A stretch of 64,000 nt of DNA from Dermatophilaceae bacterium Sec6.4 (lineage in GTDB: Bacteria > Actinomycetota > Actinomycetes > Actinomycetales > Dermatophilaceae), in the NCBI GenBank assembly GCA_039636865.1, contig CP144172.1, positions 744,001-808,000 on the forward strand, in the 5' to 3' direction. Each line of letters starts with the position of its first letter. Position 1 is the first letter of the stretch. The notes under the pieces were generated by a model that saw only the letters and a list, made by a program, of their open reading frames with translations, ran no database searches and was not told the origin of the DNA. The position numbers were made by a program, and so were the translations under genes. Of this stretch, positions 2,348 through 22,742 are shown piece after piece.

Positions 2348-3691
2348 CTACCCCTGTGTTGCCGTCTTCTGTGTGGCTTCGGTGGCGGGCTTCGGCGCTG
2401 CCTTCAGGGCGATCGCCATGACACCGGCCACCACCATGACGAATCCAACAGCCCACAGCCCTGCCTTTTCGTTGCCGGTGAGATCGGTGAGCCAACCGGT
2501 GATATAGGGGCCCAGGAAGCCGGCCGTGTTGCCGATGGAGTTGATCAGCGCAATGCCGCTGGCGGCTGCTGCGCCGGCGAGGAAGTTGGTCGGCAACGCC
2601 CAGAAGGTCGGCAGGGCGCACATGATGCCGACGGTGCAGATCGTTACCGCGATCATCGCCGCCACGGGTGAGCCGAGGTAGAGCGTCACCGGGATCGCCA
2701 TGCCACCGATGATCGTGGGTGCCGCGACGTGCCAGACGCGTTCGCCCGTCCGGTCGCCGTGGTAACCCCACGGCACCATGGCCAGCGCGCCGACCACGAA
2801 CGGGATGGCGGTGATCAGACCGAGCTGCAGGATCGAGTAGGTCACATGGAACTGCGACTCGAACCCTTTGATGATCGTGGGCAGGAAGAAGCCCACGGCG
2901 TACAGGCCGTAGACGATGCCGAAGTAGACACCGGCCAGCGCCCATACCCGGCCGCTGGCGAGAGACTCCCGGATACCGATCTGATAGGTCCCGCTGCGTT
3001 GCGCGTCCTCGGTGGCGATGGCCTGAGTCAAGGCGTCGCGTTCTTCCTGCGGTAGCCACTTCGCGGTGGCGGGTCGGTCATCGAGGAAGAACCAGCAGAT
3101 GACACCCAGCAGCACTGCCGGGATCGCCTCGACCAGGAACATCACCCGCCAGCCGTCCAGCCCGAACCAACCGTGACCGTGCTCGATCAGCAGGGCGGAC
3201 ATCGGAGCGCCGATGGCCGAGGACAGCGGAACGGCGGCCATGAACCACGCGGTCGCCTTCGCCCGTTGCTCCTGGGGAAACCAGAACGTCAGATACAGGA
3301 TGATGCCGGGGAAGAAGCCGGCTTCTGCGATGCCGAGCAGGAAGCGCAGGAAGTAGAGCAGCCCCGCGCTGTTGACGAACGCGATGGCGCCGGCCACGAT
3401 TCCCCAGGTCACCAGGATGCGCGCGATCCACCGGCGCGCGCCGACCTTGTGCAGGATCATGTTGCTCGGCACCTCGAGCAAGAGATAACCCAGGAAGAAG
3501 ATCCCGGCGGCGAAGCCGAAGCCGGTCGAGCTCAGATGCAGCGCATCGTTCATCCCGTTGGGTCCCGCGAAGCTCATGTTCGAGCGGTCCAGGTAGTTGA
3601 TCAGGTAGAGCAGGCCGAGGAACGGGATGAGCCGACGGGTTGCCTTCCGGGTGGCGCGGGCCAGCTGCGGTGACGATACGGGCGCGGTCAT
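2348..3691 (-). CDS. MFS transporter, anion:cation symporter (ACS) type
   Basis: A 447-residue membrane protein with 12 predicted transmembrane segments. Family motifs include YLDRSNMSFAGP after TM1, EVPSNMIL in TM2, GIAEAGFFPG in TM4 and PQEQRAKATAWF in the following loop. These are hallmarks of the ACS family, whose members take up organic acids such as tartrate, phthalate or hydroxyphenylacetate. The start overlaps the stop of the upstream universal-stress-protein gene by 4 bp (ATGA), so it is translationally coupled and probably the last gene of the operon that begins with hycD. The substrate is unknown. Confidence 0.8.
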   Translation of the reverse strand: MTAPVSSPQLARATRKATRRLIPFLGLLYLINYLDRSNMSFAGPNGMNDALHLSSTGFGFAAGIFFLGYLLLEVPSNMILHKVGARRWIARILVTWGIVAGAIAFVNSAGLLYFLRFLLGIAEAGFFPGIILYLTFWFPQEQRAKATAWFMAAVPLSSAIGAPMSALLIEHGHGWFGLDGWRVMFLVEAIPAVLLGVICWFFLDDRPATAKWLPQEERDALTQAIATEDAQRSGTYQIGIRESLASGRVWALAGVYFGIVYGLYAVGFFLPTIIKGFESQFHVTYSILQLGLITAIPFVVGALAMVPWGYHGDRTGERVWHVAAPTIIGGMAIPVTLYLGSPVAAMIAVTICTVGIMCALPTFWALPTNFLAGAAAASGIALINSIGNTAGFLGPYITGWLTDLTGNEKAGLWAVGFVMVVAGVMAIALKAAPKPATEATQKTATQG

Positions 3692-4188
3692 GAAGAAATT
3701 TCATCAGCGGTCGTGACAATCAGGATAGATCGACCGCCGTGATGCAGCAGGTGGTCACTGACCGAGTTTTTACCGCTGGAGCTGAAGAATTCTTTCCTGC
3801 GGGAGCCGAGGAGATGTCCTAGTGCCGACGCGACGGCATGAGCGTGCAGGTGTTGCCCGACGACGATCATTCCGGCATCGACTTGTTCAGAAAGCAGCAG
3901 CATCTGTCGCCAGGCATCGCCGTCGACCGCGTGGTAGGTCCAGGCATCGGCCGGCAATGTGATCAGCTGTCGCGCGTGTTGTTGAAGCTTCTTCAGGTGT
4001 TCGTCGAATTCTTCCTCCCAGTCCATCGAGTCCGGGTCGATCGGGGTATCCCGCATACCGATGACATGTACGACGTGTAGGTGCACCTGCAACGCCGCAC
4101 TGAGTTCAACTGCCTGCAGGAGCGCTTTACGACTTGCCTCGTGGTCATCGAAGCCCACCACGATCGGCTTGTTTCGTAGATCATTCAT
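3688..4188 (-). CDS. Universal stress protein (UspA family), atypical
   Basis: A 166-residue single Usp domain. The N-terminal strand KPIVVGFDDHEASRKALLQA and the central MIVVGQHLH are typical. The usual ATP-binding glycine loop is present in altered form: the segment LLGSRRKEFFSSSGKNSV carries an insertion relative to the usual GSxGxxxxxxxxGS arrangement, and the C-terminal strand is SILIVTT. It lies 29 bp downstream of the hydrogenase-like subunit gene and overlaps the MFS gene. Linkage of Usp genes with hyc-like genes is known from the hypoxia-responsive set of M. tuberculosis; a comparable stress role here is inference. Confidence 0.75.
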   Translation of the reverse strand: MNDLRNKPIVVGFDDHEASRKALLQAVELSAALQVHLHVVHVIGMRDTPIDPDSMDWEEEFDEHLKKLQQHARQLITLPADAWTYHAVDGDAWRQMLLLSEQVDAGMIVVGQHLHAHAVASALGHLLGSRRKEFFSSSGKNSVSDHLLHHGGRSILIVTTADEISS

Positions 4189-4217: not shown

Positions 4218-6221
4218 TCAGTTCCAGAACGTGATGACACTGATCACGGCGAGAACTGTGATCAGCATGTACGCGAGGTACGCGTCCAGGCGTCCCGATT
4301 GCAACCGCTGAGCAGTGCGCGCAATGCTCCGGACCAGCGCCCAGACAGGCTGGTACGTATAGCGTTCGACGACGTCATCAACGTTCGCCTGACGGTGCAG
4401 TGAGCCGTCGACGGTTTCGGCGATATCGATGGCGCTGCTGTGGCGTGCAGTGGGTGTGGTGATGTCCGAACTCATCAGCATGGTCGACAGGATCCGGCGC
4501 ATCGGGTTGGCGAACGCGAAAGCGGTGTAGCCGGATCGACGGTCGACCCCGGGGGAGCCCGATCCCCAGGTCGCTGTCCGGCGTACCAGGAACAGCCGTC
4601 GTCCCGATACTGCACAGGTGAACATGATGAGGACGCCGCACAGCATGGGCACCACAATCCACAGCTTGCCGGGGGACAGCGCCGAGAACCCGGAGTAGAC
4701 AGGTTGGATGACCCAGCCGGGTGCGTTGGCGGCGTCCACGTGTGTGCCCACGAGTTGGTGCAGACCAACGGAGATCAGTTGAATCTGCCAGTGTGCCGCT
4801 GCGGCTACGCCCAGGCAGGCGACGCACAGCGCGCCCACGCCGATGCGGAACATGTTCGACCGGTCGGTGTGTGGCGTATCGACCACAGGGGGGTGATTGC
4901 CGTACGCGATGAATCCCACGACGCGCACGAAGGTCAGTCCCGCGACGCCGACACTGAGGGCAACGAGTGACCCGGCCACCACGGCACCCAACTGGTATTC
5001 CAGCTGCGTCGCCCGAAATTGCTGCATCAGCGACTGCAACGTCAACCACTCGGAGGCGAAGCCGATCGTGAACGGCATCCCGGCGAGGGTCAGGGAGCCG
5101 ATGACCAGTCCGATGCCCGCTGCGGGTAGCCGGCGCCCCACTCCCCGTAGATTCTCGATCTCCAGGGTCCCGGTGTCGTCCTCGATCGCAAGCGTTGCGC
5201 TGTAGAGCAGTGATTTGCCCAGCGTATGCGCCATCACCTGGGCCGTAGCGGCCAGGAGGCCGGCCGCCATCAGCTTCGGTTGGTGGATGTCCGCTCCAAC
5301 CAGGGCCATCGAGAATCCAGTGGCGATGACCCCGGCGTTCTCCACACTCGACCAGGCGACAAGGGTCGCCAGATTCGTTGATACAGCTGCCTGTGCGATA
5401 CCGAAGATCGCGGTGATGCCACCGAGCACCAGCATCGTGGTCGTCAACCAGGCCGGTGGAGCCCCGAGGATCTGCAGGGTGCGCCACCAGCCGTAAAAGC
5501 CGATGTTGACCGCCACTCCGGCCATCAGCGCCCGCGCCGGTGCACTGGCGGCGGAATAGCTGCGCGGTAGCCAGATCTGCCAGGGGGCCAGTCCGGTTTT
5601 GATCGCAAACCCGATCAGCAGCAGCACGTATCCGGCGTCTCTCGATGCGCCCTGCGGCACCTGTGACCATGAGGACAGATCAAGTGAGTGGGAAGACGCA
5701 GTCAGCAGCAGACCACCGATCAGCAGCGCGGCCCCGCTTGCCTTACCGAAACTCGCGGCATACAGCGAGGACGGACCGCTGCGCGGGTGCTGTCGATCAA
5801 AGTTCGTCAGCAGATAAAAGGCGAAAGTAACGCCTTCCCACCCGAAAAGAAGCGTAAACAGGTTGCGCGCACTTACGACGATCAGGGCGGCGACCAGCAG
5901 TGCGGCGACCAGGGCGGGAAGCGGTCTACGCTGCGCCCGTTTGCTCCCGAAACCGCTCAGGCACAGAGGTATTGCCGGTACGAAGCAGATGACCAGGAAC
6001 AGCCCCGATAGTCGATCGACGCTCAAGGAAAACGCTGCCGGTGCCCCGAGGAGAACCCGCAAATCGCTGTTGCGATCGGTGAGGCCGGCAACACCGGCGC
6101 CCAGTCCGAACAGCGCGCTGATCGTCAGCAGTGACCACGCGAGCCGCCAGGCGATCAGTCGGTTCGGTACCAGGCAGGAGAGGGCCGCGAGTCCGGCGAC
6201 GAGGATTGCTGCCGCGATCAT
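4218..6221 (-). CDS. HyfB/NuoL-like proton-translocating subunit (Rv0083-like)
   Basis: A 667-residue polytopic protein of the NuoL/MrpA antiporter-like family. The segment FGWEGVTFAFYLLTNFDRQHPRS around residue 130 holds the conserved Glu in TM5. The segments IKTGLAPWQIWLPRSYSAAS and AYSAT/TLGKSLL further on correspond to the TM7 Lys and later channel residues. The C-terminus has a long amphipathic part ending in a final hydrophobic helix. Its ATG overlaps the TGA of the upstream ferredoxin/NuoB-like gene (ATGA), which sets the start. Together with hycD, hycP, hycQ, hycE and the NuoB-like gene it makes a complete membrane complex of the group 4 hydrogenase type. Confidence 0.85.
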   Translation of the reverse strand: MIAAAILVAGLAALSCLVPNRLIAWRLAWSLLTISALFGLGAGVAGLTDRNSDLRVLLGAPAAFSLSVDRLSGLFLVICFVPAIPLCLSGFGSKRAQRRPLPALVAALLVAALIVVSARNLFTLLFGWEGVTFAFYLLTNFDRQHPRSGPSSLYAASFGKASGAALLIGGLLLTASSHSLDLSSWSQVPQGASRDAGYVLLLIGFAIKTGLAPWQIWLPRSYSAASAPARALMAGVAVNIGFYGWWRTLQILGAPPAWLTTTMLVLGGITAIFGIAQAAVSTNLATLVAWSSVENAGVIATGFSMALVGADIHQPKLMAAGLLAATAQVMAHTLGKSLLYSATLAIEDDTGTLEIENLRGVGRRLPAAGIGLVIGSLTLAGMPFTIGFASEWLTLQSLMQQFRATQLEYQLGAVVAGSLVALSVGVAGLTFVRVVGFIAYGNHPPVVDTPHTDRSNMFRIGVGALCVACLGVAAAAHWQIQLISVGLHQLVGTHVDAANAPGWVIQPVYSGFSALSPGKLWIVVPMLCGVLIMFTCAVSGRRLFLVRRTATWGSGSPGVDRRSGYTAFAFANPMRRILSTMLMSSDITTPTARHSSAIDIAETVDGSLHRQANVDDVVERYTYQPVWALVRSIARTAQRLQSGRLDAYLAYMLITVLAVISVITFWN

Positions 6222-7006
6222 GACGGGCGCTCCACCGCAGGCAGCTGATCCGGCGTGGGCAGCCGATCCAGCGCCAGTAGAATCCCGTGCAGCAGGGCGA
6301 AGGGCGAGGCAGGCGCTCCGGGCACGAAGACATCGACGTCCAGTAATCGTGCTGCTCCGAGCCCGGGTCCGGTCAGCCCGCCGCTGATCGCCTCGGCGCC
6401 TGTTGCGATGACGACCACAGGGTCGGGCATGGCCGCTCGGGTGCGGCGCAGCGGTGGGATCATCTCGCGCGATCCGATGCCGGTCACGAGCAGGATGTCG
6501 GCGTGCCGAGGGCTGGCCGTGAAGAAGATTCCGAGTCGCTGGACGTCGTAGATGGGGTTGAGTAGCGCCCGCACTTCCCACTCGTCGCTGCCATCGGATC
6601 CTGCATCGACGTGCCGGATGTGGACCGATCGGCGCAACGCCCGCACGCGCTCGGCGAGGTCCGCGCGAACGGTGCCGGGGTCGGGGTCGTCCCCTTGGTC
6701 AGCTACCAGGAGTCGACGGTCGCGGCGCGCGGTATCGCTGCCGGGGCGCCAGGCGAACAGGTCGGGGCGCTGTCGCACACATCGGCCGCACATGATGCAG
6801 GCACCGTGATCAACGGCGAGTCCGGCCGTGACATCGATCGCCGCCACGGGGCAGATCCGGGCCACGTCGTCGGTTTCGTGCGCCGCGACGCCGCCTACGG
6901 GCAGCACACTGCCGGCAAAACTGCTGAAGTACCCATCCGGGCGTTTGGGCCACCTGCTCGTTACCGTTCCTTGTCGTAGCCCACGGGTCAGCCAGATTCC
7001 CGACAT
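6218..7006 (-). CDS. Ferredoxin-NuoB-like (HycG-like) fusion subunit lacking N2-cluster ligands
   Basis: A 262-residue protein. Residues 50-80 form a ferredoxin half: Cys52-Pro plus Cys70, Cys73 and Cys76, the complete ligand set for one [4Fe-4S] cluster. Residues 125-245 match the NuoB/HycG fold, with NPIYDVQRLGI and SPRHADILLVTG strongly conserved. Where the family has Cys-x2-Cys after VDAGS, this protein has Asp138 and Asp141; the third ligand is Glu205 (GAEAISGG) and the fourth is Ala231 (VPGAPA). All four N2 ligands are therefore absent. The start is set by an AGGAGG ribosome site about 7 bases upstream of the ATG. In M. tuberculosis the positional counterpart is Rv0082. Confidence 0.85.
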   Translation of the reverse strand: MSGIWLTRGLRQGTVTSRWPKRPDGYFSSFAGSVLPVGGVAAHETDDVARICPVAAIDVTAGLAVDHGACIMCGRCVRQRPDLFAWRPGSDTARRDRRLLVADQGDDPDPGTVRADLAERVRALRRSVHIRHVDAGSDGSDEWEVRALLNPIYDVQRLGIFFTASPRHADILLVTGIGSREMIPPLRRTRAAMPDPVVVIATGAEAISGGLTGPGLGAARLLDVDVFVPGAPASPFALLHGILLALDRLPTPDQLPAVERPS

Positions 7007-7055
7007 CAGCGTTGCCTCCTCATGGTCGGGCACAGGGTCATGACACTGCAGTGCT

Positions 7056-8558
7056 TCACATCGCCACCCCCGCGTAACACAGCCCGAAACTGGCCTCGAT
7101 GAACGGCAGGTCGGTAAAGACGTCCCCGTCGAATACATGCCGCAGCAGCACCATGTTGTGAAAGGACGCGCTGCGCGCGAAACAACGCGTGATCCGACCG
7201 TCATCGAATCGCACGCTGTAAAGCACCTCTCCAGCAGCAGATTCCGCGACGCCGATGAAATCGCCGTCGTGCACCACGACCGGTGCCGCGAGGTCGTCGT
7301 CGTCGGCGCGGGTGGCCAGGCGACTTGCTGCCTCGTTGACCAGCGCGGTTGAGGAGGCCATCTCCTCCTCGCGGACCCGCATCCGGCCCAGCGCGTCGGT
7401 GAGGTGGCTGGTCGCTACGACGAACGGATCCAGGAGCGGGTAGGCGTCGTAAGGGCGCAGCGTGCGCGCGTCCAGTGACATGTCGCTGGCCCGACCGATC
7501 GGGCCGAGGGCGCCGTAACGCTGTGCCAGGTCGGCTGCCAACCGGCCAGTGCCGCGCAGCCGGTCCAAGAAGGATGCAGACCTGTTGAGACTGATGAGAT
7601 CTCGCGCGATCGCCCGGTGTAATTGGGTCAACTCTGCGGAAAGCTCCTGCGGATGATCTCGCAGTGCCATCGTCACGCCACCGGGCACGACGACGCCGCG
7701 ACCGAAACGACTTCCGGTCGCGTGCGACATCAGCCGCATGACCCGTTCCTTGTGCGTTCCGAAGCGCGCGACGGCGACGGACAGGCCGGCGCATTCGCAC
7801 AGTTGGGTGACCACGTCCAGGTGATTGGCGACGCGTTCCAGCTCGGCGAGGATGACCCGGATCAACTGCGCCCGGGCCGGCACCACAATGCCGAGGCCTT
7901 CTTCGAGGGCGTGGGAGAAGGCAAGCGCATGGGCCACGGAGTGCACGCCCTCCACCCGTTCGGCGAGCAGGACGGCGTCCTCAGCCGTGTGGTGTTCGAA
8001 CCGTTTGGCGATCTGCCGGTGCTTGTAGTGCGGACGGATGTCCAGGCGGAGGATGTCTTCGCCGCCGGTTTCCAGCAGCAACTCCAACGATTCGACGATC
8101 CCGGAGCGCACCGGCCCGAAGGGCAGAGTGAACACACCCTGACCGCTGACGCTGACAGGGGCCAGGTAGTCGCGACTGGTCAACTCCACGTCGGACGCAC
8201 TCTCACTGCTGCCAGGACGAGGCGCAGGCACGCCGTCCACCTTCGGTAGCAGCAGCAGATCCAACTGGGGATGGCCGACCGGTTCGATCCCGGACAGATT
8301 GTGCAGCGCGCGTTCGTACCAGACTGCGGCCGGTACCTCGGGGGTCAGCGCCGGGTAACTGCGCTCTTCGCCGAGCGCTGTGCGCGCGAGCTCCAAGGTG
8401 GGGCCGTTGCTGAGAACGGCGACCAGTTCGGGGATGTCGCCCACCTCGGTCGCATACAGACCGGCGAGTCGGCCACCGTCGGCACACGACCGCAGCACCC
8501 GGTCCCGCCATTGCGATACCTCGGTGAACCTGGGCACGCTGGTTGGTTCAACCGACAT
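7056..8558 (-). CDS. hycE: HycE-like large subunit (NuoC-NuoD fusion) without [NiFe] ligands
   Basis: A 500-residue protein with an N-terminal NuoC-like part (about 1-130) and a NuoD/hydrogenase large-subunit part. The first Cys-x2-Cys of group 4 hydrogenases (R-[IV]-C-G-[IV]-C) is replaced by RVEGVHS at 201-207 (Glu203, His206). The C-terminal DPCxxC is replaced by FGLCYAG, keeping one Cys (494) and ending six residues later. A [NiFe] centre cannot be ligated in the usual way. Other NuoD-like landmarks remain, such as IRPHYKHRQIAKRFE and the RLMSHATGSRFGRGVVVPGG stretch. The ATG lies inside the end of hycQ (11 bp overlap); a GTG at 8570 is an alternative start. Confidence 0.85.
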   Translation of the reverse strand: MSVEPTSVPRFTEVSQWRDRVLRSCADGGRLAGLYATEVGDIPELVAVLSNGPTLELARTALGEERSYPALTPEVPAAVWYERALHNLSGIEPVGHPQLDLLLLPKVDGVPAPRPGSSESASDVELTSRDYLAPVSVSGQGVFTLPFGPVRSGIVESLELLLETGGEDILRLDIRPHYKHRQIAKRFEHHTAEDAVLLAERVEGVHSVAHALAFSHALEEGLGIVVPARAQLIRVILAELERVANHLDVVTQLCECAGLSVAVARFGTHKERVMRLMSHATGSRFGRGVVVPGGVTMALRDHPQELSAELTQLHRAIARDLISLNRSASFLDRLRGTGRLAADLAQRYGALGPIGRASDMSLDARTLRPYDAYPLLDPFVVATSHLTDALGRMRVREEEMASSTALVNEAASRLATRADDDDLAAPVVVHDGDFIGVAESAAGEVLYSVRFDDGRITRCFARSASFHNMVLLRHVFDGDVFTDLPFIEASFGLCYAGVAM

Positions 8559-10047
8559 AGGACACCCCACTGAGCTGGCCCGCGCCGGTATGCAGCAACG
8601 TCGCCAGCGGCCCGGGCAGCCACAACCCCAGCAGCAGCAGAGCCAAGATCGCGATCACCATCGGCACGACCATCCATGCCGCTGCCTCATGCACTGCGGC
8701 CTGTTCGCCGGCCTGCGGTCTGCTGACGTCCGGTTCACCGGATGCGGCCGACCGGATGGTGGCGCCGGCAAGCCCGATGAAAGCGAGCACCACCAGCACG
8801 ACCAGCACGGCCCCGGTGGTCGTGTGTCGAGCCTCGAACCCGCCCTGCACGATGATGAATTCGCTGCGGAAGACACCAAAGGGCGGCATCCCGCACAGCG
8901 CAAAGACCGCGATAATGAAGATCGACGCGGTCCAGGGCATTCGGCTGAGCGCTCCACGCACCCGCGAGAGTGCTTTGGTGCCGAAACCTTGCACCAAGCT
9001 ACCCGCTGACATGAACGCCGCGCCCTTTGCTGCAGCGTGCACCAAAACGTGCAACAGCACGCCGAACATCGCGGTCGTGACCCCGAAGCTGACCCCGATG
9101 ACCATGATCCCCATGTGTTCTACGCTCGAATACGCCAACAGTCGCTTCACGTTGCGTTGCTCCAGCAGATACAGAGCTGCCAGCAGCAGGGTCAGCACTC
9201 CGAAGCACAGCAGGACTCGCTGCGGGAAGGTGGCCCCGACGGTCGCCACGGTGACCTGGTAGAAGCGCAGGATGGCGTAGAGGCTGACGGCCAGCAGCGA
9301 GCCGGACAGCAGCACCGACAGCGGAGTAGGGGCCTCGGAATGCGCGTCGGGTAACCATGTGTGCATCGGCACGATGCCGACCTTGGTGCCGAAACCGACC
9401 ACGGCCAGGACGAACGCCAACCGCACCGGTGTCCCCGGCAGTTCAGAGGCGTGGTGCAGCAGGTCCGCGAATGCCAGGTCGTAGGAGTTGCCCAACACCT
9501 GGGCGCCGGCGTAGTACATGAAGATGGTGCCCAGGAGCGCGATTCCAAGCCCGCAGGACGCAATCATCACGTACTTCCACGCGGCCTCCGAGGCAGCTTC
9601 GGTGTCGTCGATCGCCACCAGCACTGCGGAAACGACTGTCGTGACCTCGACGCCGACCCAGATCAGGGCCAGCCCGTTGACCGAAGGCGCGGCGAGCATG
9701 GCCCATGCGAACAGGTTCATCCCGGCCAGGAACTGACGTTGATACCTGCGGTAGTCACGAGGAGTCTTCTCGCGCTCCTCGGCCTTGAGGTACCCAGTCG
9801 TGTAGATAGCGACGACGGCGTACAGGAAGGAGGTCGCCAGCAGGAATACCAGCGATAGTGCGTCCACCCGAAGGAAACCGGCGGTGACCGGATGGTCACC
9901 GACAGTCGGTATCAGCGAGATGGCCAATGCGAAGCTCACGACGCCCGCGACGATGGTGACCAGATTGGCGGCCAGCCCGCTCAGCACTGCACTCAATGCG
10001 GTGGCCACCAAAGGCACCACCATCAACACGATCAGAATCCAGCCCAT
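8548..10047 (-). CDS. hycQ: HycQ/HyfF-like antiporter-type membrane subunit
   Basis: A 499-residue polytopic protein of the NuoN/NuoM/MrpD-like family. Conserved channel features are visible: WVGVEVTTV with the TM5 Glu, VGFGTKVGIVPMHTWLPDAH with the TM7 Lys, and LAYSSVEHMG plus HAAAKGAAFM with the later charged residues. These support proton or sodium translocation. The gene is separated from hycP by one base and overlaps hycE. Retention of all the channel charges contrasts with the loss of metal ligands in the soluble subunits, so the membrane arm looks functional. Confidence 0.85.
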   Translation of the reverse strand: MGWILIVLMVVPLVATALSAVLSGLAANLVTIVAGVVSFALAISLIPTVGDHPVTAGFLRVDALSLVFLLATSFLYAVVAIYTTGYLKAEEREKTPRDYRRYQRQFLAGMNLFAWAMLAAPSVNGLALIWVGVEVTTVVSAVLVAIDDTEAASEAAWKYVMIASCGLGIALLGTIFMYYAGAQVLGNSYDLAFADLLHHASELPGTPVRLAFVLAVVGFGTKVGIVPMHTWLPDAHSEAPTPLSVLLSGSLLAVSLYAILRFYQVTVATVGATFPQRVLLCFGVLTLLLAALYLLEQRNVKRLLAYSSVEHMGIMVIGVSFGVTTAMFGVLLHVLVHAAAKGAAFMSAGSLVQGFGTKALSRVRGALSRMPWTASIFIIAVFALCGMPPFGVFRSEFIIVQGGFEARHTTTGAVLVVLVVLAFIGLAGATIRSAASGEPDVSRPQAGEQAAVHEAAAWMVVPMVIAILALLLLGLWLPGPLATLLHTGAGQLSGVSYVG

Positions 10048-10048
10048 G

Positions 10049-10726
10049 TCAGCCCCTCAGCGAAGTGAGGTCGGCAGTGGACAATGACGAAACATGTCGG
10101 TGGTGAGTGCGCATCAGGATGCCGAACACCACCACGGCGATGAGCAGGTCGAAAAGGAACGCGACCTCCAAGACCAGCGGGAGTCCGGCGGCGACCACGA
10201 GGCTCGCCACGGAGACCCCGTTGTCCAACGAGAAGAAACCGATCGACTGACTGACCACGTCGCGCCGCACGATCATCAGTACAAACGCCACGAGCACCAC
10301 GGCTACCGCGAAACTCAGGGCACTGGTGGGCAGCACTGTCGAATGTATATGTAGTGCTCCAACGGCGAAGAAACCGAAGACCGCGATGATAATGGAAAGA
10401 ATGACTTCGCTGGCTACCCCCAACGCGCCGCTACCGGCAATCTCAGTTTCGGAATCGGTCATCATTCGGGTGATGACCCACGGCACGATGAGTGCCTTGA
10501 GCGCGAAAGAGATCACCGCAAGTATATAAAGTTCCGGCAGTGACTTTTCGTAGGCGATGACGATCGCCAGCAGACTAACGACCCCCGACTGCGCGGCATA
10601 CAGCCGCACCTGGGCGCGCAACAGGGCTGCCCTGAGCATCACAAACTCCAGCAGGAGCACGATCAGGCTGATCGTGCTGGTTACCCCGTCAAAAACGCTC
10701 GGCGCGTTAGCCACGGCGTCGTGCAT
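10049..10726 (-). CDS. hycP: HycP/HyfE-like membrane subunit (NuoK-related)
   Basis: A 225-residue hydrophobic protein with about seven transmembrane helices, matching the HyfE/HycP type found in hydrogenase-4 and hyc-like operons. It is preceded by hycD with a TGATG overlap, where the stop TGA and start ATG share one base, so the two are translationally coupled. Acidic residues occur within helices, for instance in LIVLLLEFVMLRA and VIAYEKSLPELY, as expected of NuoK-like subunits. No soluble domain is present. Confidence 0.8.
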   Translation of the reverse strand: MHDAVANAPSVFDGVTSTISLIVLLLEFVMLRAALLRAQVRLYAAQSGVVSLLAIVIAYEKSLPELYILAVISFALKALIVPWVITRMMTDSETEIAGSGALGVASEVILSIIIAVFGFFAVGALHIHSTVLPTSALSFAVAVVLVAFVLMIVRRDVVSQSIGFFSLDNGVSVASLVVAAGLPLVLEVAFLFDLLIAVVVFGILMRTHHRHVSSLSTADLTSLRG

Positions 10727-11685
10727 CAGCTACCTCCAAGGAATAGCGTGCAGACCGCGAATACTGATAGCAGGAATGCCGCGGCGACGAACTCGGTGAT
10801 TTTGAAGAGCCGCAACTTGGCAAAAGAGTTGTCAATGCACATGATCAACACGCCTAAAACTGCGGCCTTCGTCAGTAGGGCGCAGGCGGCGCCGATGACC
10901 GGAAGAGGTGCCGTGCCCGCACTCAAACCCCATGGTGCGGCGAAAATGTTCAACAGGATCGTGAAGAGCACCAGTTGTTTGATCATCGATCCCCAGTGCA
11001 GCAACGCCAGGTAGGGGCCTGAGTGCTCGAAGGACCGCGCCGTCTCGATCATGCCCAACTCGATGGTCCCGGTATGGGTCTCGATCGGTATGCGCGCTGT
11101 CTCGAACAGAATTGCCATGAAGAGCGCGAAGGTAGCCAACAGGTGGGCGGGCCGGACGATCTGTTCAGGTCCACTACGCACCGTCGCCGCGAGAGCGAAG
11201 GGCGAATCCGTGGCGGTGATCGCAGCCACGGTGAAGAACACCATGAGCAGCACCGGTTCGGTGATCGCACCAAAAGACTTGGCCCGGCTCGCACCCAGTT
11301 GCGCATACGGGTCCCCGGTTTCGGCGGCTGCAGCAGACGCCAGGAAACTCCCGAACGCCAACAGGAATCCACCGCCCAAGATATCGCCCATATCAGCCAA
11401 CGGCAGCGGGTATGTAGTCAGTACTGGAATGAGCATCGGCACGGTGAGATAACAGGCGAGGGAAAGTATCGGCGCTATCAGGAAAATTGGTCCTGCTCCC
11501 GATGGCGCCAGAGACTCTTTGCGGAACATTTTGGACAAATCAAAATACGGCTGCAAGATCCTCGGGCCGCGACGTCCTTGGAGCTTGGCTTCGATAGTGG
11601 CGATGAATCCACTGATCGCCGGTGCTCCGATAGCTATCGTGAGCACCTGGGCACATTGGATGATCGACGTCGTCGGGAAGTTCAC
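10726..11685 (-). CDS. hycD: HycD-like membrane subunit (NuoH-related)
   Basis: A 319-residue membrane protein of the NuoH/HycD family and first gene of the six-gene complex. The N-terminal loop KLQGRRGPRILQPYFDLSKM is the family signature (conserved RRGP..LQPY.DL.K). A later stretch, ETARIPIETHTGTIELGMIE, contains the conserved acidic residues of the quinone/ferredoxin-facing cavity. The start is GTG at 11685, with a stop codon immediately upstream in frame, so it cannot begin earlier. No good ribosome site precedes it. Confidence 0.85.
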   Translation of the reverse strand: MNFPTTSIIQCAQVLTIAIGAPAISGFIATIEAKLQGRRGPRILQPYFDLSKMFRKESLAPSGAGPIFLIAPILSLACYLTVPMLIPVLTTYPLPLADMGDILGGGFLLAFGSFLASAAAAETGDPYAQLGASRAKSFGAITEPVLLMVFFTVAAITATDSPFALAATVRSGPEQIVRPAHLLATFALFMAILFETARIPIETHTGTIELGMIETARSFEHSGPYLALLHWGSMIKQLVLFTILLNIFAAPWGLSAGTAPLPVIGAACALLTKAAVLGVLIMCIDNSFAKLRLFKITEFVAAAFLLSVFAVCTLFLGGS

Positions 11686-11715
11686 CTACGATCGTCGCCC
11701 GGTCGATTCACAGCA

Positions 11716-11747
11716 AGCCCTTCCGATAGCGGAAGGGGCTATTAGCC
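11716..11747. promoter_or_regulatory. Inverted repeats upstream of the hycD operon
   Basis: About 30 bp upstream of the hycD start, CCCTTCCG and CGGAAGGG form perfect 8-bp arms around ATAG, with AGC/GCT extending the repeat past one unpaired C. A second near-palindrome GGCTATTAGCC (11737-11747) overlaps its right end. This could be an operator or a hairpin in the leader of the hydrogenase-like operon. A canonical DosR box (GGGACT..AGTCCC) is not present. Confidence 0.5.
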
Positions 11748-11894
11748 GATAGGCGGTTCGGGCTTGGTGGCCCCGGCGAGCTCCATCGCCGTTGTACTAC
11801 GTGCATGTAAGCAGGGCGGACCGTTCGCCGTCAAGGGGCTTTGGCGCGAAGGGAACCGTGCCGTAGGGTCGAAATTCAGCGAAGGGTTGATGAG

Positions 11895-12473
11895 ATGACC
11901 GACGACTCCACCCAGGTCTTGCTCGTGCGTCACGGCGAGACCGTGCTGAACGCCGGGGGCCGGTTACGAGGTCGTCTCGATCCAGATTTGAACGACGTGG
12001 GTCGACGTGAGGTCGCTGCACTGGCACGCGCGCTGGTTGCCTATGACGTGCGTACCGTCTACACCAGTCCACTGTTGCGGGCTCGGCGAACCGCACGCGC
12101 GATCGCCGACGCCTGCGCGGGAAATGTCGAGATCGACGAACGGCTCAACGACCGCGACTACGGGCAGTGGGCCGGTCAACTGAGGGAGGACGTGTTGTCC
12201 CGCTGGGGATCGATCGACGCGGCACCCGGTGTCGAGCCCGCCGCCGACGTCGTGGCGCGGGCCATGGCCGCGTTCGCGGATCTTGCGGGCCGACCCGGCA
12301 CGGTGCTGGTCGCGCATGACGCCATCAATCAGCTGCTGCTCCAGCAGGTTGACCCGAGCCTGGCTGGTCCTCCGCAGCAGCACACCGCGTGTTGGAATGT
12401 CCTGGAACGCAACGGGGGTCAGCCCTGGCGCATCATCGCACTCAATCAGATCGCCGTCGAAACCCTGCGCTAG
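11895..12473 (+). CDS. Histidine phosphatase family protein
   Basis: A 192-residue protein with the catalytic LLVRHGETVLNAGG motif at the N-terminus (phospho-accepting His in RHGE), the family pattern GRLDPDLNDVGRREVAALA, and the second catalytic His in VLVAHDAINQLLL. It is therefore a phosphoglycerate-mutase-like (PGAM) acid phosphatase. The ATG at 11895 follows a GAAGGG ribosome site. The substrate is undetermined. It is convergent with the MutS-like gene and overlaps its 3' end by 4 bp. Confidence 0.8.
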   Translation: MTDDSTQVLLVRHGETVLNAGGRLRGRLDPDLNDVGRREVAALARALVAYDVRTVYTSPLLRARRTARAIADACAGNVEIDERLNDRDYGQWAGQLREDVLSRWGSIDAAPGVEPAADVVARAMAAFADLAGRPGTVLVAHDAINQLLLQQVDPSLAGPPQQHTACWNVLERNGGQPWRIIALNQIAVETLR

Positions 12474-13987
12474 TCAGTCGTGGTCGGCGGCGAACCGAAC
12501 GTGCGCTGGTAGAGGTCGACGCCATAGCTGGTGCGCTGTGCCGCCCCTTCTGCTAGTCGAAAGGTGCGCTCGCCGCTCTCGTCACGGTCGGCACGTAGGA
12601 ACAGCGTGGTCTGGTCGTGGTGCTGTTGGAATCGGTGTGCGAGCTCATAGAGATGGGTGACGAACACGACGGTGATGCCGACCTGTTCCAGGGCCCGGAG
12701 AATGTCTGTGGCAATCTCCGCAGCTTCGCGTTCGTTGGTCGCGGCGAATGATTCGTTGAACAGCAGCAGCGCATGTGGTCGGATCCGGGTAGCGATGCGG
12801 CTCATTCGGCCCAGCTCTTCTTCGAACTTCCCGGTGGTCATGGTGGCGTCTTCTTCGCGGGCGTAGTGGGTGAACACGCCTGCGACGGTGGCGGCAGTGA
12901 ACGACTGCGCTGCTACCGGCATGCCGGCCTGCATCATCAGGTATGCGAGGCCGACGCTGCGCAGGAAGGTCGACTTACCCCCTTGGTTGGCGCCGGTGAT
13001 GAAGATGAGCGGCTTGCCGTCCGCTCGCAGGTCGTTGCCCTTGATTCGCGCGGGGGAACGCAGCCCCAGGCATGGATCGTAGAGGCCGCTCGCTGTCAGG
13101 GACCGGCTGCCCGTAGCGCACGGCTGGGGTCGACAGATGGGGAGTTGCCGCGCCGCTAGTCGCTCCCGCAGGTTCAGGCAACCCACGTAGAAGGCCAGCT
13201 CTAGGCGAAGCGCGGTGAAGAAACTCAGAATGTGCTTGGCGGCCGCAGCCAGGGCGTCGGCAGCGAGAGTGAGGGCCCGGTCGCGCAGGCCCGCGAGGTC
13301 CTGCGCAGCGCCGTCGTCGTCGCGCGGCATGGTGCGGCTGAAGTAGGGGCGTTTGACCGGCGGGTGCCTGGAAAGCAGGTGGCTCTCGTTTTCGCTGCGA
13401 GGTGCGCGTAGCACGTAGTCGACGCCTTGGCTGTGTGAGCCCAGGTGTGCGCTGGCCACCACGCCGTGCGGGAAAGTGAGCGTACGTAGATGCGCGGCGA
13501 TCTCGGCGAAGTAGCGGTCATCGAGTTCGGCGTCGATCTCGGCGAAGAAGCGACTGAACGCAGGCGAGGTGAAAGTGCCGGCGTGCTGCCCGGCCAGGGC
13601 GCGCAGCTGCTTCAGCACTTCGACGAACATCGTCAGAGCGTTCATCGAGCGGCCAAGCAGGGCTGCACTGCTACTGCTGAAGAAGCTGGCCCGGTAGATC
13701 GCGCGTTCCTGATCAATGGCCGCAGCAGCGAGGTCGTACAGTTCGCGGACTACGCCGGGCCGGGCCACGCAATCGGCCAGCGTCTGGCTGCGGTAGTCGA
13801 TCTGGGCGGGATCGAGGAGTACGGCGAGGGTGGCGGTGCGGATCGAAGCGTGCACGACCTGGTCGTCGCCGGCGGCCGCAGCCCACAGCGTGGCGAGGTC
13901 GAGGTCTGCGATGAGGTCGGCATCGCCCGGGCGGTCGTCATGGGTGGGATCGAAGTCGCGGTCCGCGAACATCAGCATCGCTCTCAT
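12470..13987 (-). CDS. MutS-like ATPase, subunit A of pair 1
   Basis: A 505-residue protein that keeps only the lever/core and ATPase parts of MutS; the mismatch-binding and connector domains are missing. Walker A is GANQGGKST at 332-340, the Walker B region ALLLFNESFAATNER lies near 406-420, and between them is FTHYAREEDATMTTGKFEEE, the MutS signature region. It starts MRAMLMFADRDF. Its ATG overlaps the TGA of the B subunit gene (ATGA), so the two are co-translated. It is paralogous to 18712-20298, which starts MRSLLLFPDRDL and shares Walker A. Heterodimer formation with the B subunit is inference from pairing and duplication. Confidence 0.8.
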   Translation of the reverse strand: MRAMLMFADRDFDPTHDDRPGDADLIADLDLATLWAAAAGDDQVVHASIRTATLAVLLDPAQIDYRSQTLADCVARPGVVRELYDLAAAAIDQERAIYRASFFSSSSAALLGRSMNALTMFVEVLKQLRALAGQHAGTFTSPAFSRFFAEIDAELDDRYFAEIAAHLRTLTFPHGVVASAHLGSHSQGVDYVLRAPRSENESHLLSRHPPVKRPYFSRTMPRDDDGAAQDLAGLRDRALTLAADALAAAAKHILSFFTALRLELAFYVGCLNLRERLAARQLPICRPQPCATGSRSLTASGLYDPCLGLRSPARIKGNDLRADGKPLIFITGANQGGKSTFLRSVGLAYLMMQAGMPVAAQSFTAATVAGVFTHYAREEDATMTTGKFEEELGRMSRIATRIRPHALLLFNESFAATNEREAAEIATDILRALEQVGITVVFVTHLYELAHRFQQHHDQTTLFLRADRDESGERTFRLAEGAAQRTSYGVDLYQRTFGSPPTTTD

Positions 13988-15627
13988 CGGTTCAGCTCCT
14001 GCACGAGTCGCTGGAACCCGAGACCGTATTTGTCGGCGATAGCTCGGGCATACGCACGGCCGTCGGCCGGCTTACGAATCACTTTGTGGGTGCGGGTCGC
14101 CGGGTCGTTCGGGTCGATGGTGCTGACCATGCTGACAGTCTTGTCGTTGAGGACCGCCAGTTCGTCCAGAAACGTGACGCACACGCAGAGCGCATCCAAG
14201 TCGGATACCCGCTGAAGAATGTGCCGGCTCAACAGCAGTGCATCGTCGGTGGTGGTCGAGTTGAAGATCTCGTTGAGGATGACCAGGCTGGCCGGAGTCG
14301 CGAGGGCGAAATCATCGCGTAACTGGTCCAGTTCGGTCTGCAACCTGCCGGTCATGGTGGTGCTGTCCTCGGCGCGTTCGAAGTGGGTGAAGATCTGATC
14401 GCACACGAAAAGTTGGGTATCGAGGCCGGGGACGGGACAGCCGAGACGGGCGAGGTAGTGCAGCTGGCCGACGGTGCGGGCCATCGTGGTTTTGCCGCCG
14501 TTGTTCGGCCCGGAGATGACCAGGATGCGTTCCTCGCCGGTGAGGGTGATGTCGTTGACCACCACCTCATGGTCAGTCCCGGCCGGAGCGGATGCGACCT
14601 CAGGGGACCTGCCGCCACGTTGCGGATGACGCCGGTGACGCGACTGCTCGAGCTTGTGGGCCAGCGCCATGTCGAAGGTGTGCAGTGCCTGCTCCGTCTT
14701 GTCAGTATCTGACAGTCGGGGATAGCTGAATGGGAGGTTGGCCGTGCGCAATGGGGCCAGGTGGTCCAGGTAGGCGAGGTAGAACTGAATGTCGCGTTCG
14801 AACTGGGCGATCGCGGGATCCAGGTAGTCCAGGTGCTGGGCGCAGAACGCGTCCACCTCCGCGAACAGGACGGGATACAACTGGGCGACCAGATCCAGGA
14901 CGCCGGTGCCTGCGTAGGCATCATGCTCCTGACTGCGGATGTTCGGTTTCTCGACGTCTGATTTTTCATCCTCCGTCGTGTCATCTGGTTGCTGGAAGCG
15001 GGCGAATGTTGTGGCGACGCGGTCGCCGTAGTCACCTTCGCCGTCGTACCCGGCCACTGTGATCCGATCGCCGCGGACGACCACGACGTACTGCACGTCG
15101 GCGAGTTCAGCTTCGAGGCGGGCGACCTCATTGTTGAGCTGAAGGAACTGCTCAGAGTTCACATAGTCATGCAGGTAACTGGTCAGGGTGCCCAGACCGC
15201 GAGAGGTGGGCGCAGCTGCCCGTAGACCTTCGGTGAGTGTGAGCACCGACTGGCAGTACTCCTGGACCGCGTTCAGGAAGAACCGGGTCCGGTAATGATG
15301 TTGCAGGCCATGGTCATCCTTGCGTATCTCCTTGGTGCGGTAGCCGAAGGCGAAGACAAGTCGCCGTTTTGTGAAGTCCCTGATCAGTGATCCGACCTGG
15401 TCTCGTTCGACGTCTTTGAAGACCTCGTGGCGGTAGTTGAGGTCGTCGAGATCGCGCAACGGCGACCAGTACAGCGGGCTCAGGTGGTAGTCAGCCTGAC
15501 CCTCGTTGATGGCGGTAACGACCTGGTCAAGATTGAGATCGCGAAAGTACCCGGGCTCCTGCACTTCGCGATCTTCCTGCTCGGACGGGCGCCTGCCAGC
15601 CGGATAGAGCACGTCTGGGCGACGCAT
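13984..15627 (-). CDS. MutS-like ATPase, subunit B of pair 1
   Basis: A 547-residue MutS-related protein of a different type from subunit A. Walker A is GPNNGGKTT at about 373-381, followed by ARTVGQLHYLARLGCPVPG and later FTHFERAEDSTTMTGRLQ and VILNEIFNSTTTDDA (Walker B and signature). The N-terminal half begins with EPGYFRDLNLDQVV and is a helical core without the MutS mismatch-recognition domain. A charged linker (about 210-245) interrupts the core. The ATG at 15625 is chosen because the paralogue begins similarly close to the ..LYGDHPAP/..LYPAGRRP segment. It is 112 bp downstream of the enolase gene in the same direction. Confidence 0.8.
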   Translation of the reverse strand: MRRPDVLYPAGRRPSEQEDREVQEPGYFRDLNLDQVVTAINEGQADYHLSPLYWSPLRDLDDLNYRHEVFKDVERDQVGSLIRDFTKRRLVFAFGYRTKEIRKDDHGLQHHYRTRFFLNAVQEYCQSVLTLTEGLRAAAPTSRGLGTLTSYLHDYVNSEQFLQLNNEVARLEAELADVQYVVVVRGDRITVAGYDGEGDYGDRVATTFARFQQPDDTTEDEKSDVEKPNIRSQEHDAYAGTGVLDLVAQLYPVLFAEVDAFCAQHLDYLDPAIAQFERDIQFYLAYLDHLAPLRTANLPFSYPRLSDTDKTEQALHTFDMALAHKLEQSRHRRHPQRGGRSPEVASAPAGTDHEVVVNDITLTGEERILVISGPNNGGKTTMARTVGQLHYLARLGCPVPGLDTQLFVCDQIFTHFERAEDSTTMTGRLQTELDQLRDDFALATPASLVILNEIFNSTTTDDALLLSRHILQRVSDLDALCVCVTFLDELAVLNDKTVSMVSTIDPNDPATRTHKVIRKPADGRAYARAIADKYGLGFQRLVQELNR

Positions 15628-15739
15628 CACCGAACCCAGTACTGCTGTGGTCGATGAAGTGCAGCAGGGCGCGTCCCGATCCACGACGCGTGCGCTGGGT
15701 CAACTGTCGTGTCGGATGGCATCAGAGACGGATGACACA

Positions 15740-16996
15740 TCAGAGACCGAAGAGCAGGTTCTCGTCGGCTTCGATTCTGATCAACCGGTTGTATTTCGCG
15801 ATGCGCTCGCCCCGCGCGGGAGCGCCGCTCTTGAGTTGACCGCACCCGCCGCTGACGGTGAGGTCGGCGATGAAGGTGTCGTCGGTCTCGCCAGAGCGGT
15901 GGGAGACGAACTGCGCCCACCCGGCTTCGCGGCATACCCGCATGGCCTCGAGTGTTTCGGTGACCGTGCCGACCTGGTTGACCTTGATGAGCGCCGCGTT
16001 GCCGGCTTTGCGCGTGATCGCCTCGCGGATGGTCACCGGGTTCGTGCACAGCAGATCATCGCCCACGAGTTGCACTTTGTCGCCCAGGCGTGCGGTCAGC
16101 CGCTCCCAGCCCTCCCAGTCCGATTCGGCCAGGCCGTCCTCCAGTAGGCGGATCGGATACCGGTCGATGAGTTCTTCGTAGCGGGTGATCATGTCGTCGG
16201 TCGAGAGGGCTTCACCGGCGACGTGGTAGCGGCCGTCGCGGTAGAACTCGCTGGAGGCCGGGTCCATCGCGATCGCGACACCGTCCCGGCCCGGCTGGTA
16301 GCCAGCTGCTTCGATTGCTTGCACGAGATAGTCCAGGACGTCCTCTGGTTGAGTGATCTGCGGGGCGAACCCACCCTCGTCCCCCAGGCCGGTCGCGAAA
16401 CCTCTATCTGCGAACAGGCGTCGCAGCGCGCCGTAGATCTCCGAGCCCGCGCGCACTGCCTCCGCGATGGACGGCGCACCCACCGGGGCGATCATGAACT
16501 CCTGGAAGTCCAACTCGTTAGCTGCGTGTGCGCCGCCGTTGACGACGTTGAAATGAGGCACTGGGAGTCGTGGTGTCACGCCCTCGGGGCACAGCGCCCG
16601 CCACAGCGGTTGACCTGATGCATACGCACCTGCTCGTGCTGCGGCAATCGACACACCGACGATCGCGTTGGCACCCAGCCGTGACTTGTTAGCGGTCCCG
16701 TCCAGCGCGATGAGGGCCGCGTCGAGCTCGGCGAGGTCGTCGAATGGGCGGCCGATCAGGGCATCGGCGATCTCGCCCGTCACGTTGGCTACTGCGGTGC
16801 GCACGCCGAGCCCGCCGAAACGGTCTGGATCGCCGTCGCGCAGCTCCACTGCCTCACCTGACCCGGTCGAGGCCCCAGAGGGCACGCCCGCTTCGACCAT
16901 CGGGCCATCGGTCAAGCTCAGTGTCACGGCGAGCGTCGGCCGGGACCGGGAGTCCAGGATTTCGAGCGCATCGAGTGTTGCGAGCGTCAGTGCCAT
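15740..16996 (-). CDS. eno: Enolase paralogue
   Basis: A 418-residue enolase (2-phosphoglycerate to phosphoenolpyruvate). Recognisable active-site and Mg2+ segments are VPSGASTGSGEAVELRDGD, GDEGGFAP, LLEDGLAESDWEGWERL, LVGDDLLCTNP, LIKVNQVGT and SHRSGETDDTFIADL. The sequence is divergent at the ends: the N-terminus reads LDSRSRPTLAV instead of the usual LDSRGNPT, and the C-terminus is short (ENLLFGL). It may be a second enolase rather than the housekeeping copy, which usually lies near ftsB/divIC-type genes. The ATG is preceded by AAGGAG. It is read toward the MutS-like pair. Confidence 0.85.
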   Translation of the reverse strand: MALTLATLDALEILDSRSRPTLAVTLSLTDGPMVEAGVPSGASTGSGEAVELRDGDPDRFGGLGVRTAVANVTGEIADALIGRPFDDLAELDAALIALDGTANKSRLGANAIVGVSIAAARAGAYASGQPLWRALCPEGVTPRLPVPHFNVVNGGAHAANELDFQEFMIAPVGAPSIAEAVRAGSEIYGALRRLFADRGFATGLGDEGGFAPQITQPEDVLDYLVQAIEAAGYQPGRDGVAIAMDPASSEFYRDGRYHVAGEALSTDDMITRYEELIDRYPIRLLEDGLAESDWEGWERLTARLGDKVQLVGDDLLCTNPVTIREAITRKAGNAALIKVNQVGTVTETLEAMRVCREAGWAQFVSHRSGETDDTFIADLTVSGGCGQLKSGAPARGERIAKYNRLIRIEADENLLFGL

Positions 16997-17298
16997 GTTG
17001 GTCTCCTTGAGGTAGCAGGTGCGATTCTCCGCCCCTGCGGGCCCAGCTCGCGGCGACACAACAGCACGACCGTCCCGCTGCGAGTAGTCCCGAGATTTCA
17101 GAATCTAGTCCTCCACGGCGGGGTCGTGTCTCCCGCCGTCGAACGAAGGGGCCGGACTGACTGCGGCAAAGGTCGCTCCAATGGCGGTATCGATCGACTA
17201 GCCATAGTTGCGGGCCTACATTGATTATTTGGAGACCGGCCCGGTCTAGGCACGCGGTAGCCGTCGGCGGCTCTTCCCGTAGCTCAGGAGGTAGGGCA
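16997..17298. other. Divergent intergenic region enolase / MFS
   Basis: About 300 bp without a gene between the enolase and MFS starts. It holds a perfect palindrome, AGACCGG-C-CCGGTCT, at 17233-17247, preceded by the AT-rich patch TTGATTATTT. This looks like an operator near the MFS promoter. Nothing else clear was seen. Confidence 0.4.
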
Positions 17299-22339: not shown

Positions 22340-22742
22340 GGCCTACCTCGCATCAAATGATCGAAGTAGGGCCCATCAGCCAACAGTGGCGGTTCGACCG
22401 CGAGGTCCGGTGAGGTCCATCACCAAGATTGATAGTGTCACTTTGTTTACCGGGAAGCAACGACAGGTCGGGCCGGTCCTATTCGACCAGGCAACCGAGT
22501 CCTCTCAATTCGGATCTGGAGCCTATCTCGACGCACGATATGACCCCGCACAGACCGTGTCCCATGATCGTGCGAGCGGGTTGCAATTCTGGTGGGAGCG
22601 ATGTCCAGCCCGGCTCCACCAAAAGAAATGGCTGTTGGTGCATCCGTTCGAGGTACCTGGGCGGAAGTAGGGGTAAGGCCGCTTCCTGGTGGCCGGTGCA
22701 ACGAGCCTCCAGTGCTCGACCAATCCGTCGATGGGATCCCTG
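22340..22742. other. Divergent intergenic region, repeat protein / DUF4397
   Basis: About 400 bp with no convincing gene; the apparent frames on both strands lack family features. It should contain the divergent promoters of the MutS-like pair 2 unit and of the DUF4397-sortase operon. A local AT-richer stretch around 22425-22450 (TTGATAGTGTCACTTTG) is the best promoter candidate, but no clean -35/-10 pair is seen. Confidence 0.35.

Follow-up and report, generated by a model that had tools for sequence, protein, structure and literature searches.

What can a hydrogenase-type complex do for a cell once its catalytic subunits have lost the ligands of their metal centres? The question is raised by a six-gene operon of Dermatophilaceae bacterium Sec6.4 (assembly GCA_039636865.1), which lies in a 64,000-nt stretch of contig CP144172.1 (positions 744,001-808,000, forward strand) that we call the window and in whose numbering the features below are placed. 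By open reading frames (ORFs) and profile matches the operon, at 11685-4218 on the minus strand, encodes a complex of the group 4 hydrogenase/complex I type, which confirms the gene set and the coordinates given in an original prediction made from the sequence alone. That prediction also took the complex for an energy-converting-hydrogenase-related (Ehr) one that has lost the ligands of the N2 iron-sulfur (Fe-S) cluster as well and may move ions by means other than H2; this much of its interpretation stands, while it missed a fluoride riboswitch, a fluoride-related gene neighbourhood, a ferredoxin domain and a second Ehr operon in the genome. With these in hand, we give an even chance to the proposal that the window complex is a fluoride-riboswitch-led member of the Ehr group whose redox chain has been cut, and which would work as a cation/proton translocator during fluoride (hydrogen fluoride, HF) stress.

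A conserved complex without [NiFe] and N2 ligands

The two subunits that bear on the metal centres are a HycE/NuoCD-like protein without [NiFe] ligands (7056..8570, minus strand like every gene of the operon, with residues numbered from 8558; PF00346, PF00329 and PF00374; E 1.3e-44 against 7z0s_E) and a NuoB/HycG-like protein of 262 aa without N2 ligands (6218..7006, numbered from 7006; PF01058 and PF13459), the latter with an N-terminal ferredoxin domain and, over residues 118-256, the only part that the comparison with PDB chains spans, a NuoB fold. Alignment places the four proximal-cluster Cys of MbhJ (6cfw_J) and HycG (7z0s_G) on Asp138, Asp141, Glu205 and Ala231 of the NuoB-like protein (minus-strand codons 6593-6595, 6584-6586, 6392-6394 and 6314-6316), just as had been predicted, and it places C241, C244, C531 and C534 of Escherichia coli HycE on Glu203, His206, Cys494 and Gly497, leaving one Cys of the four [NiFe] ligands.

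Whether such changes extend beyond a single genome was asked of two sets, the 120 best database hits (the window protein counted in) and the best 80 of 115 confirmed genomic stretches, all of them Actinomycetota as judged by record titles, that were found with patterns from the HycE-like protein (FIEASFGL and ERxANHLDV) so that the N2 motif itself was not selected for. Among the 120 hits, NuoB-like position 138 is D in 119 and N in one, position 141 is D in 110 and E in 10, position 205 is D in 107, E in 12 and A in one, and position 231 is S in 65, A in 52 and N in three. The loci give the same picture (138: D 75, N 1, 4 gaps; 141: E 54, D 21, V 1, 4 gaps; 205: D 74, E 1, 5 gaps; 231: S 61, A 12, N 1, 6 gaps), such that the substitutions recur in all 74-76 of the 80 loci whose sequence spans these sites. 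HycE-like E203 and G497 are found in 80/80 loci; E203 lies outside every scan pattern, whereas the presence of E488 in the 80 loci is selected and not free evidence, because the patterns cover it together with the neighbours of C494. The predicted Glu203/His206 pair and single Cys of the last CxxC hold for the window protein and not for the family: among the 120 hits position 206 is Ala in 59, Ser in 52, His in six, Cys in two and Asn in one, and the last Cys is Cys in 63, Ser in 48 and Gly in nine. The idea of E203/H206 as a family-wide pair akin to the Asp-x-x-His of complex I was dropped because the His is not conserved. Judged from this recurrence, the window operon is a conserved variant without [NiFe] and N2 ligands, not a product of decay.

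Alternative Cys ligands nearby, which the original prediction had named as grounds for its own refutation, are absent from the NuoB domain of the window protein: its only Cys, C52, C70, C73 and C76, all lie in the ferredoxin-type domain (C52...C70xxC73xxC76, 6779..6853, minus strand). From the Cys spacing this domain is taken as the one-cluster type, and presumably it would adjoin N2, as in the complex I subunit NuoI. Among the 120 hits these four Cys are present in 119, 120, 119 and 119, and all of the 80 loci have them wherever the alignment shows no gap. Maturation genes, which the original prediction did not see in the window, appear to be missing from the genome as well, in that PF01924 (HypD) has no match at E <= 1e-3 in an assembly that is 99.28% complete, and 4/14 control genomes do match; a hydrogenase with distant maturation genes was thereby set aside.

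The membrane arm consists of a HyfC/NuoH-like subunit (10726..11685; PF00146; E 3.5e-32 against 7z0s_D of formate hydrogen lyase, FHL), a HyfE-like subunit (10049..10726), a HyfF/NuoN-like antiporter-like subunit (8548..10047; PF00361) and a HyfB/NuoL-like antiporter-like subunit of 667 aa (4218..6221; PF00361; E 6.5e-31 against 7z0s_C). Together the operon ORFs match the families NADHdh, Proton_antipo_M (twice), Complex1_49kDa/30kDa and Oxidored_q6. The HyfE-like protein had no Pfam match and was assigned by NCBIfam NF008556 (hydrogenase 4 membrane subunit) at 73.3 bits, under the cutoff of 136, and a PDB search with the HyfF-like protein at the one limit of E 1e-30 returned no match. Among the six genes there is no match to a flavin or dehydrogenase subunit (Pfam, NCBIfam), no NADH module and no formate dehydrogenase or HycB-type subunit, the last without a genome-wide search.

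The channel residues of this arm, which had been predicted to be intact, are invariant wherever they could be aligned (of 79, 78 and 72 loci with a hit, those aligned over 70% or less were set aside): E134, K222, K341 and E396 of the HyfF-like subunit in 73/73 loci, E129, K208, K336 and E391 of the HyfB-like subunit in 66/66, and the E-channel residues E202, E209 and E220 of the HyfC-like subunit in 71/71. Both antiporter-like subunits carry the antiporter signature (TM5 Glu, TM7 Lys, TM8-region Lys, TM12 Glu/Lys) at the positions of E. coli NuoL/M/N. The column of NuoM K265 and NuoN K247 holds Ala in the HyfF-like and Asn in the HyfB-like subunit, with Lys in the NuoL K342 column instead, an arrangement shared by E. 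coli HyfF.

In the HycE-like alignment, read by counting, Val155 occupies the column of Thermus His38, which we take to be the quinone-binding His in the beta1-beta2 loop of complex I. The four HycE residues named for proton transfer in passages of the FHL structure paper (PMC9474812), E193, H284, R395 and E437, correspond to E156, H246, R356 and E399 and are kept in 119/119 homologs. In the same homologs the canopy Arg478 column is Gln in 112, Ala in five and another residue in two (Ala442 in the window), and the canopy Asp529 column is Gly in 118 of 119; all 12 other Ehr rows compared, fluoride-linked or not, keep the Arg. The C241 column is Glu in 119/119 members of the window family and Ser, Ala or Asp in the 12 other rows. 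The former active-site/N2 pocket thus holds conserved acids (D138, D/E141 and D/E205 of the NuoB-like subunit, E156 and E203 of the HycE-like one), and since the canopy Arg is replaced and Cys have given way to acids, it has by sequence lost one positive charge and gained negative charges in both subunits.

These features can be set beside those of known systems. Ehr complexes are described, in passages of PMC6349859, as lacking the Ni- and Fe-coordinating residues, and the window complex agrees in having no [NiFe] Cys set together with NuoH-like and antiporter-like subunits, although it has none of the N2 ligands of classical Ehr. A group 4 [NiFe] hydrogenase would have the four Cys ligands and HypD; here one of these Cys is left, and HypD has no match in the genome. 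E. coli FHL-1 (Hyc) and Hyf share homologs of HycC, HycD, HycE and HycG and the four proton-transfer residues, but the window complex has neither their [NiFe] site nor their proximal cluster. The complex I Q-module shares the NuoB fold, NuoD homology, the E-channel Glu and antiporter-like subunits, but the window complex has neither the tandem-Cys N2 site nor a His at the aligned quinone-His position.

A fluoride riboswitch in the operon leader

Forty bases ahead of the first operon gene, at 11726..11799 on the minus strand, sits a fluoride riboswitch aptamer (RF01734) that scores 39.4 bits in Rfam against a gathering threshold of 34 (E 2.1e-7), which would place the operon in the regulon of this RNA. 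It is the top RF01734 match in the 3.79 Mb genome, where only two matches occur at E <= 1e-3, both within this island; the other, at 22360..22433 on the minus strand, reaches 31.9 bits in Rfam and 46.4 bits with our own model (R1). A scan of 11600-12000 for promoters and terminators found neither, and folding of 11680-11800 gave a strong hairpin that shares sequence with the aptamer's 3' part, with a z of only -1.91; a terminator/antiterminator switch in the leader is accordingly offered as a suggestion from the folding model.

To follow the leader through the family, a riboswitch model was built from nine such hits and applied to the 67 loci whose sequence reaches 4 kb or more ahead of HycE, the other 13 of the 80 being too short and left out of the count. 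A match was found in 64/67, on the operon strand and 3.1-4.1 kb ahead of HycE, and all 64 precede the HyfC-like gene, 59 of them by 13-150 bases and five by 497-875. Because the model was trained on family members, Rfam serves as the independent check: of six family loci, four (L016, L019, L035 and L037) have an operon-head match over threshold, L020 has a match elsewhere and L015 has none.

The neighbouring genes raised the suspicion of a fluoride regulon, and Rfam then confirmed the riboswitch. Neighbours were surveyed by dropping ORFs of less than 90 aa, clustering the rest and searching one representative per cluster against Pfam, and those recurring around the 80 loci are MutS_V, DUF190, CrcB, enolase, inorganic pyrophosphatase, universal stress protein (Usp), histidine phosphatase, dynamin-like GTPase and major facilitator superfamily (MFS) genes. 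Of the loci that extend over at least 21 kb, 28/36 have one or more of the MutS_V, DUF190, enolase, CrcB and pyrophosphatase clusters.

In the window, all on the minus strand, a universal stress protein gene lies directly downstream of the operon (3688..4188; PF00582), its cluster recurring in 9/80 related loci. On the other side come two MutS_V-domain proteins (12470..15684; PF00488) and an enolase (15740..17059), the latter assigned through its cluster with L022:2495-3778, which matches PF00113 and PF03952. Two more MutS_V-domain proteins (18712..21893; PF00488) stand behind the second riboswitch-like element, which precedes a small ORF (21890-22339) and then these two genes. The island thus carries four MutS_V-domain proteins, and MutS_V clusters are found in 36/80 related loci. 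Dynamin-like GTPase genes occur near the operon in 22/80 loci (for example L081:15050-16891). A CrcB (Fluc-type) gene pair lies elsewhere in the genome (G000:C2:1245793-1246526).

That fluoride riboswitches precede FHL-like genes is already known. Such genes are listed behind the crcB motif in passages of Weinberg 2010 (PMC2864571), and the parts of a 2024 review consulted (PMC11139923) place formate hydrogen lyase among the common fluoride-riboswitch genes, beside a shift to fermentation, and cite Baker 2012 for the same association. Going by these printed descriptions, the published genes, which may or may not be the operons studied here, share the leader switch and FHL-like subunits with ours, and mutS, enolase and pyrophosphatase are named there too; the riboswitch-linked HycE-like proteins examined here, however, all lack the [NiFe] Cys set. 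The formate hydrogen lyase label is therefore probably wrong for this clade, at least as its sequences read, and because its proteins cannot, by their ligands, make hydrogen, a role in pH or ion balance is the likelier one.

Stepwise loss of N2 ligands among relatives

The genome holds a second operon of the superfamily (L003:4306-11521, at about 2078300-2085500 of G000:C2), and this one is of the classical Ehr type. Its order is NuoB-HyfB-HyfC-HyfE-HyfF-HycE, the complete set of four N2 Cys is present in its NuoB-like protein (SCNGCE, GDCA, GCPP), its HycE-like protein also lacks the [NiFe] Cys (SFNLSYAGNDL), and no RF01734 match at threshold occurs within the surrounding 18 kb. Classical Ehr thus shares with the window complex the membrane module, a HycE-like subunit without [NiFe] Cys and a NuoB-like subunit, and the window complex differs in having no N2 Cys, a riboswitch and a gene order unlike that of L003. 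The hyc set of Mycobacterium tuberculosis, which the original prediction had called comparable, looks classical in its gene order (NuoB-like first, with a short NuoB) and so unlike the window operon. No N2 Cys has been lost in four other classical loci (L101, L103, L104 and L131) either, and these four and L126 have no RF01734 match at threshold; L127, also on the classical side, has a weak riboswitch-model match of 19.9 bits. In a survey of the phylum, at least 11/396 genomes carry relatives at E <= 1e-60, a lower bound since at most three candidates were scored per genome.

Relatives outside the window family form a graded series. At the four N2 positions, the Burkholderiales plasmid loci L129 and L133 read CCCC and have in addition an eight-Cys ferredoxin domain; L102 and L128a read CCCC, L123 and L124 CCCN, the Rubrobacter-type loci L097-L100 CCPS, with Cys standing two residues before and two after position 3, L128b DIDD, and the window family D, D/E, D/E, S/A. 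Displaced Cys occur in the Rubrobacter-type relatives only (the species name being taken from the 99% identical P0241). The NuoB proteins of this type (L097-L100, P0241-P0249) show a CGPAC motif and Ser at the fourth position and may still bind a cluster through displaced ligands. Outside the window family the riboswitch is found by Rfam in L097-L099, L102, L128 (ahead of L128b), L129, L130 and L133, to which the model adds L100, L123 and L124. L128 itself (G500:C8:34000-52000) carries two Ehr-type copies, CCCC and DIDD, with the riboswitch ahead of the second, and so offers a natural before/after pair; in L130, from a plasmid of Alicyclobacillus sp. ALC3, a HycE-like gene is accompanied by one CrcB and two DUF190 genes, RF01734 matches five times at threshold, and the stretch has no NuoB-like match.

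In a HycE tree of 40 rows, a branch of 29 mostly fluoride-linked rows (support 99/98) stands apart from eight classical Ehr rows, whose own union as a single clade is weakly supported (82/59). Moving toward the window family, one passes L129/L133, then L097/L099, then L128b, before reaching the window family itself (supports 90/84, 94/90, 93/81 and 100/100). As the sequences stand, N2 ligands appear to vanish stepwise within this 29-row clade while the proton-path residues persist. The deep branches of the NuoB tree are poorly resolved; it does not reject a single origin of the Asp-type proteins (p 0.256) and rejects one origin of all N2-poor proteins (p 9.7e-20). Of the 120 best hits obtained with the Rubrobacter-type NuoB, read as proteins only, 94 are CCCC, nine CCPS and 17 Asp-Glu types, one of the 17 being named Chloroflexota (P0255, DESS). 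Literature covered by title, abstract start or passages yielded no N2 loss in Ehr, no actinobacterial N2-less branch, no stepwise series and no non-hydrogenase identity for the FHL of fluoride riboswitches.

What the complex may do

The mechanism that we favour would begin with HF leaking into the cell and acidifying the cytoplasm, at which point the fluoride-bound RNA would switch the operon on. The two antiporter-like subunits would then move protons and/or other cations, restoring pH and the membrane potential that fluoride exporters need. In this scheme the complex would be a secondary translocator under gating control: protons or cations would be loaded at the acidic pocket, which would take over from the redox centre, and the one Fe-S cluster still present would have a structural or regulatory part. 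Secondary, gated translocation is favoured because the usual route of electrons to the membrane interface is closed once N2 is gone. According to passages of PMC11139923, HF entry acidifies the cytoplasm, fluoride exporters rely on proton-motive force, and Na+/H+ antiporters are the next commonest riboswitch-associated class after exporters; an inducible proton/cation translocator fits this setting because HF acidifies cells and the exporters need that force. Such antiporters would share with the window complex the proposed job of pH and ion balance in HF stress as well as antiporter-like subunits; the window complex differs from them in its conserved peripheral arm and its single Fe-S site. 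Both induction of the operon by fluoride and ion transport are things that we infer from the sequences, and transport driven by something other than H2 remains the best reading of them.

A number of observations weigh against this proposal. Among the 67 testable loci, L015, L086 and L090 have no model match in the operon-head band (L015 has one 4.7 kb from HycE, and L086 a 28-bit Rfam match on the opposite strand); within the 29-row branch, L090 is joined by L096, with no match at the operon head by model or Rfam, and by L128a, with no clear match on its own strand, and L068 is too short to tell. The second riboswitch-like element of the window falls below the Rfam gathering cutoff, the CrcB pair of the genome has no riboswitch match, and 8/36 of the longer loci lack all five hallmark neighbours. 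Loss of N2 is not tied to fluoride alone, because the classical-type loci L126 and L127 have lost it too (TCDD), and a fluoride role is compatible with redox chemistry, because the Burkholderiales relatives keep both the N2 Cys and an eight-Cys ferredoxin domain. The whole peripheral arm, to judge by its sequences, is strongly conserved, beyond what a plain antiporter needs, and what the translocator reading above all leaves unexplained is the conservation of the ferredoxin cluster. As a separate observation, L090, the family member without a fluoride riboswitch match, has a thiamine pyrophosphate (TPP) riboswitch upstream on the opposite strand (L090:5604-5715).

Several of these points converge on the chief rival, a rerouted redox path in which the complex would still be a redox-driven pump, active under fluoride stress, with the ferredoxin cluster passing electrons to some acceptor (quinone, flavin or partner protein) in or near the vacated N2 space. 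The near-universal ferredoxin ligands (119-120/120, and all 80 loci apart from gaps) speak for electron transfer or redox sensing of some kind, the fluoride-linked Burkholderiales relatives have both the N2 Cys and an eight-Cys ferredoxin domain, and 43 columns of the NuoB-like and 93 of the HycE-like protein are invariant among the 120 hits. Set against this are the loss of the [NiFe] and N2 sites and of the canopy Asp, the replacement of the canopy Arg, Val155 in the place of the presumed quinone His, and six operon genes with no match to a flavin or dehydrogenase subunit, and on balance we think such a pump unlikely, if worth serious attention.

Less probable still is that the acidic pocket binds a divalent cation such as Mg2+ and thereby detects or transports fluoride in the form of a metal-fluoride complex, fluoride itself then gating or driving the machine. 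The conserved acids that line the former N2/active-site interface from either side, the loss of the neighbouring Arg and the fluoride-specific genetic setting would suit such a site, as would the inhibition of enzymes by fluoride through complexes with metal cofactors described in part of PMC11139923. The AlphaFold model, however, is only moderate (pLDDT 68.9, pTM 0.64), the fourth position is Ser, Ala or Asn, and in some distant N2-poor relatives (14/120 rows) the third is Ser.

An ordinary Ehr complex of classical function, in which the substituted residues still hold an Fe-S cluster, seems very improbable: the overall gene set is that of Ehr, and Asp can stand in for one Cys in some Fe-S proteins, but in the window family none of the four ligand positions holds a Cys, the window protein has no Cys anywhere in its NuoB domain, and no cluster is known to be held by oxygen ligands at four residues other than Cys. 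A decaying hydrogenase operon, or the sequencing or assembly error that the original prediction had allowed for, would account for missing ligands taken alone and can be dismissed, given that the same substitutions recur through the 120 hits and the Actinomycetota loci, that functional residues are near-invariant and that the riboswitch is kept at the operon head.

Returning to the translocator reading, the riboswitch and the fluoride gene neighbourhood supply a physiological setting for an Ehr variant. A further step, which we take tentatively and with more doubt than belief, is that this is the first machine of the complex I superfamily without an electron path to its membrane arm, in which an acidic pocket that binds cations or metal fluoride would gate or drive translocation. 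If that were true, coupling in the superfamily would need neither N2 nor redox chemistry at the pocket. How complex I couples its N2/quinone pocket to distant channels is debated, and a series of relatives in which N2 is lost step by step, with the proton-path, E-channel and channel residues still in place, could separate redox chemistry from ion movement.

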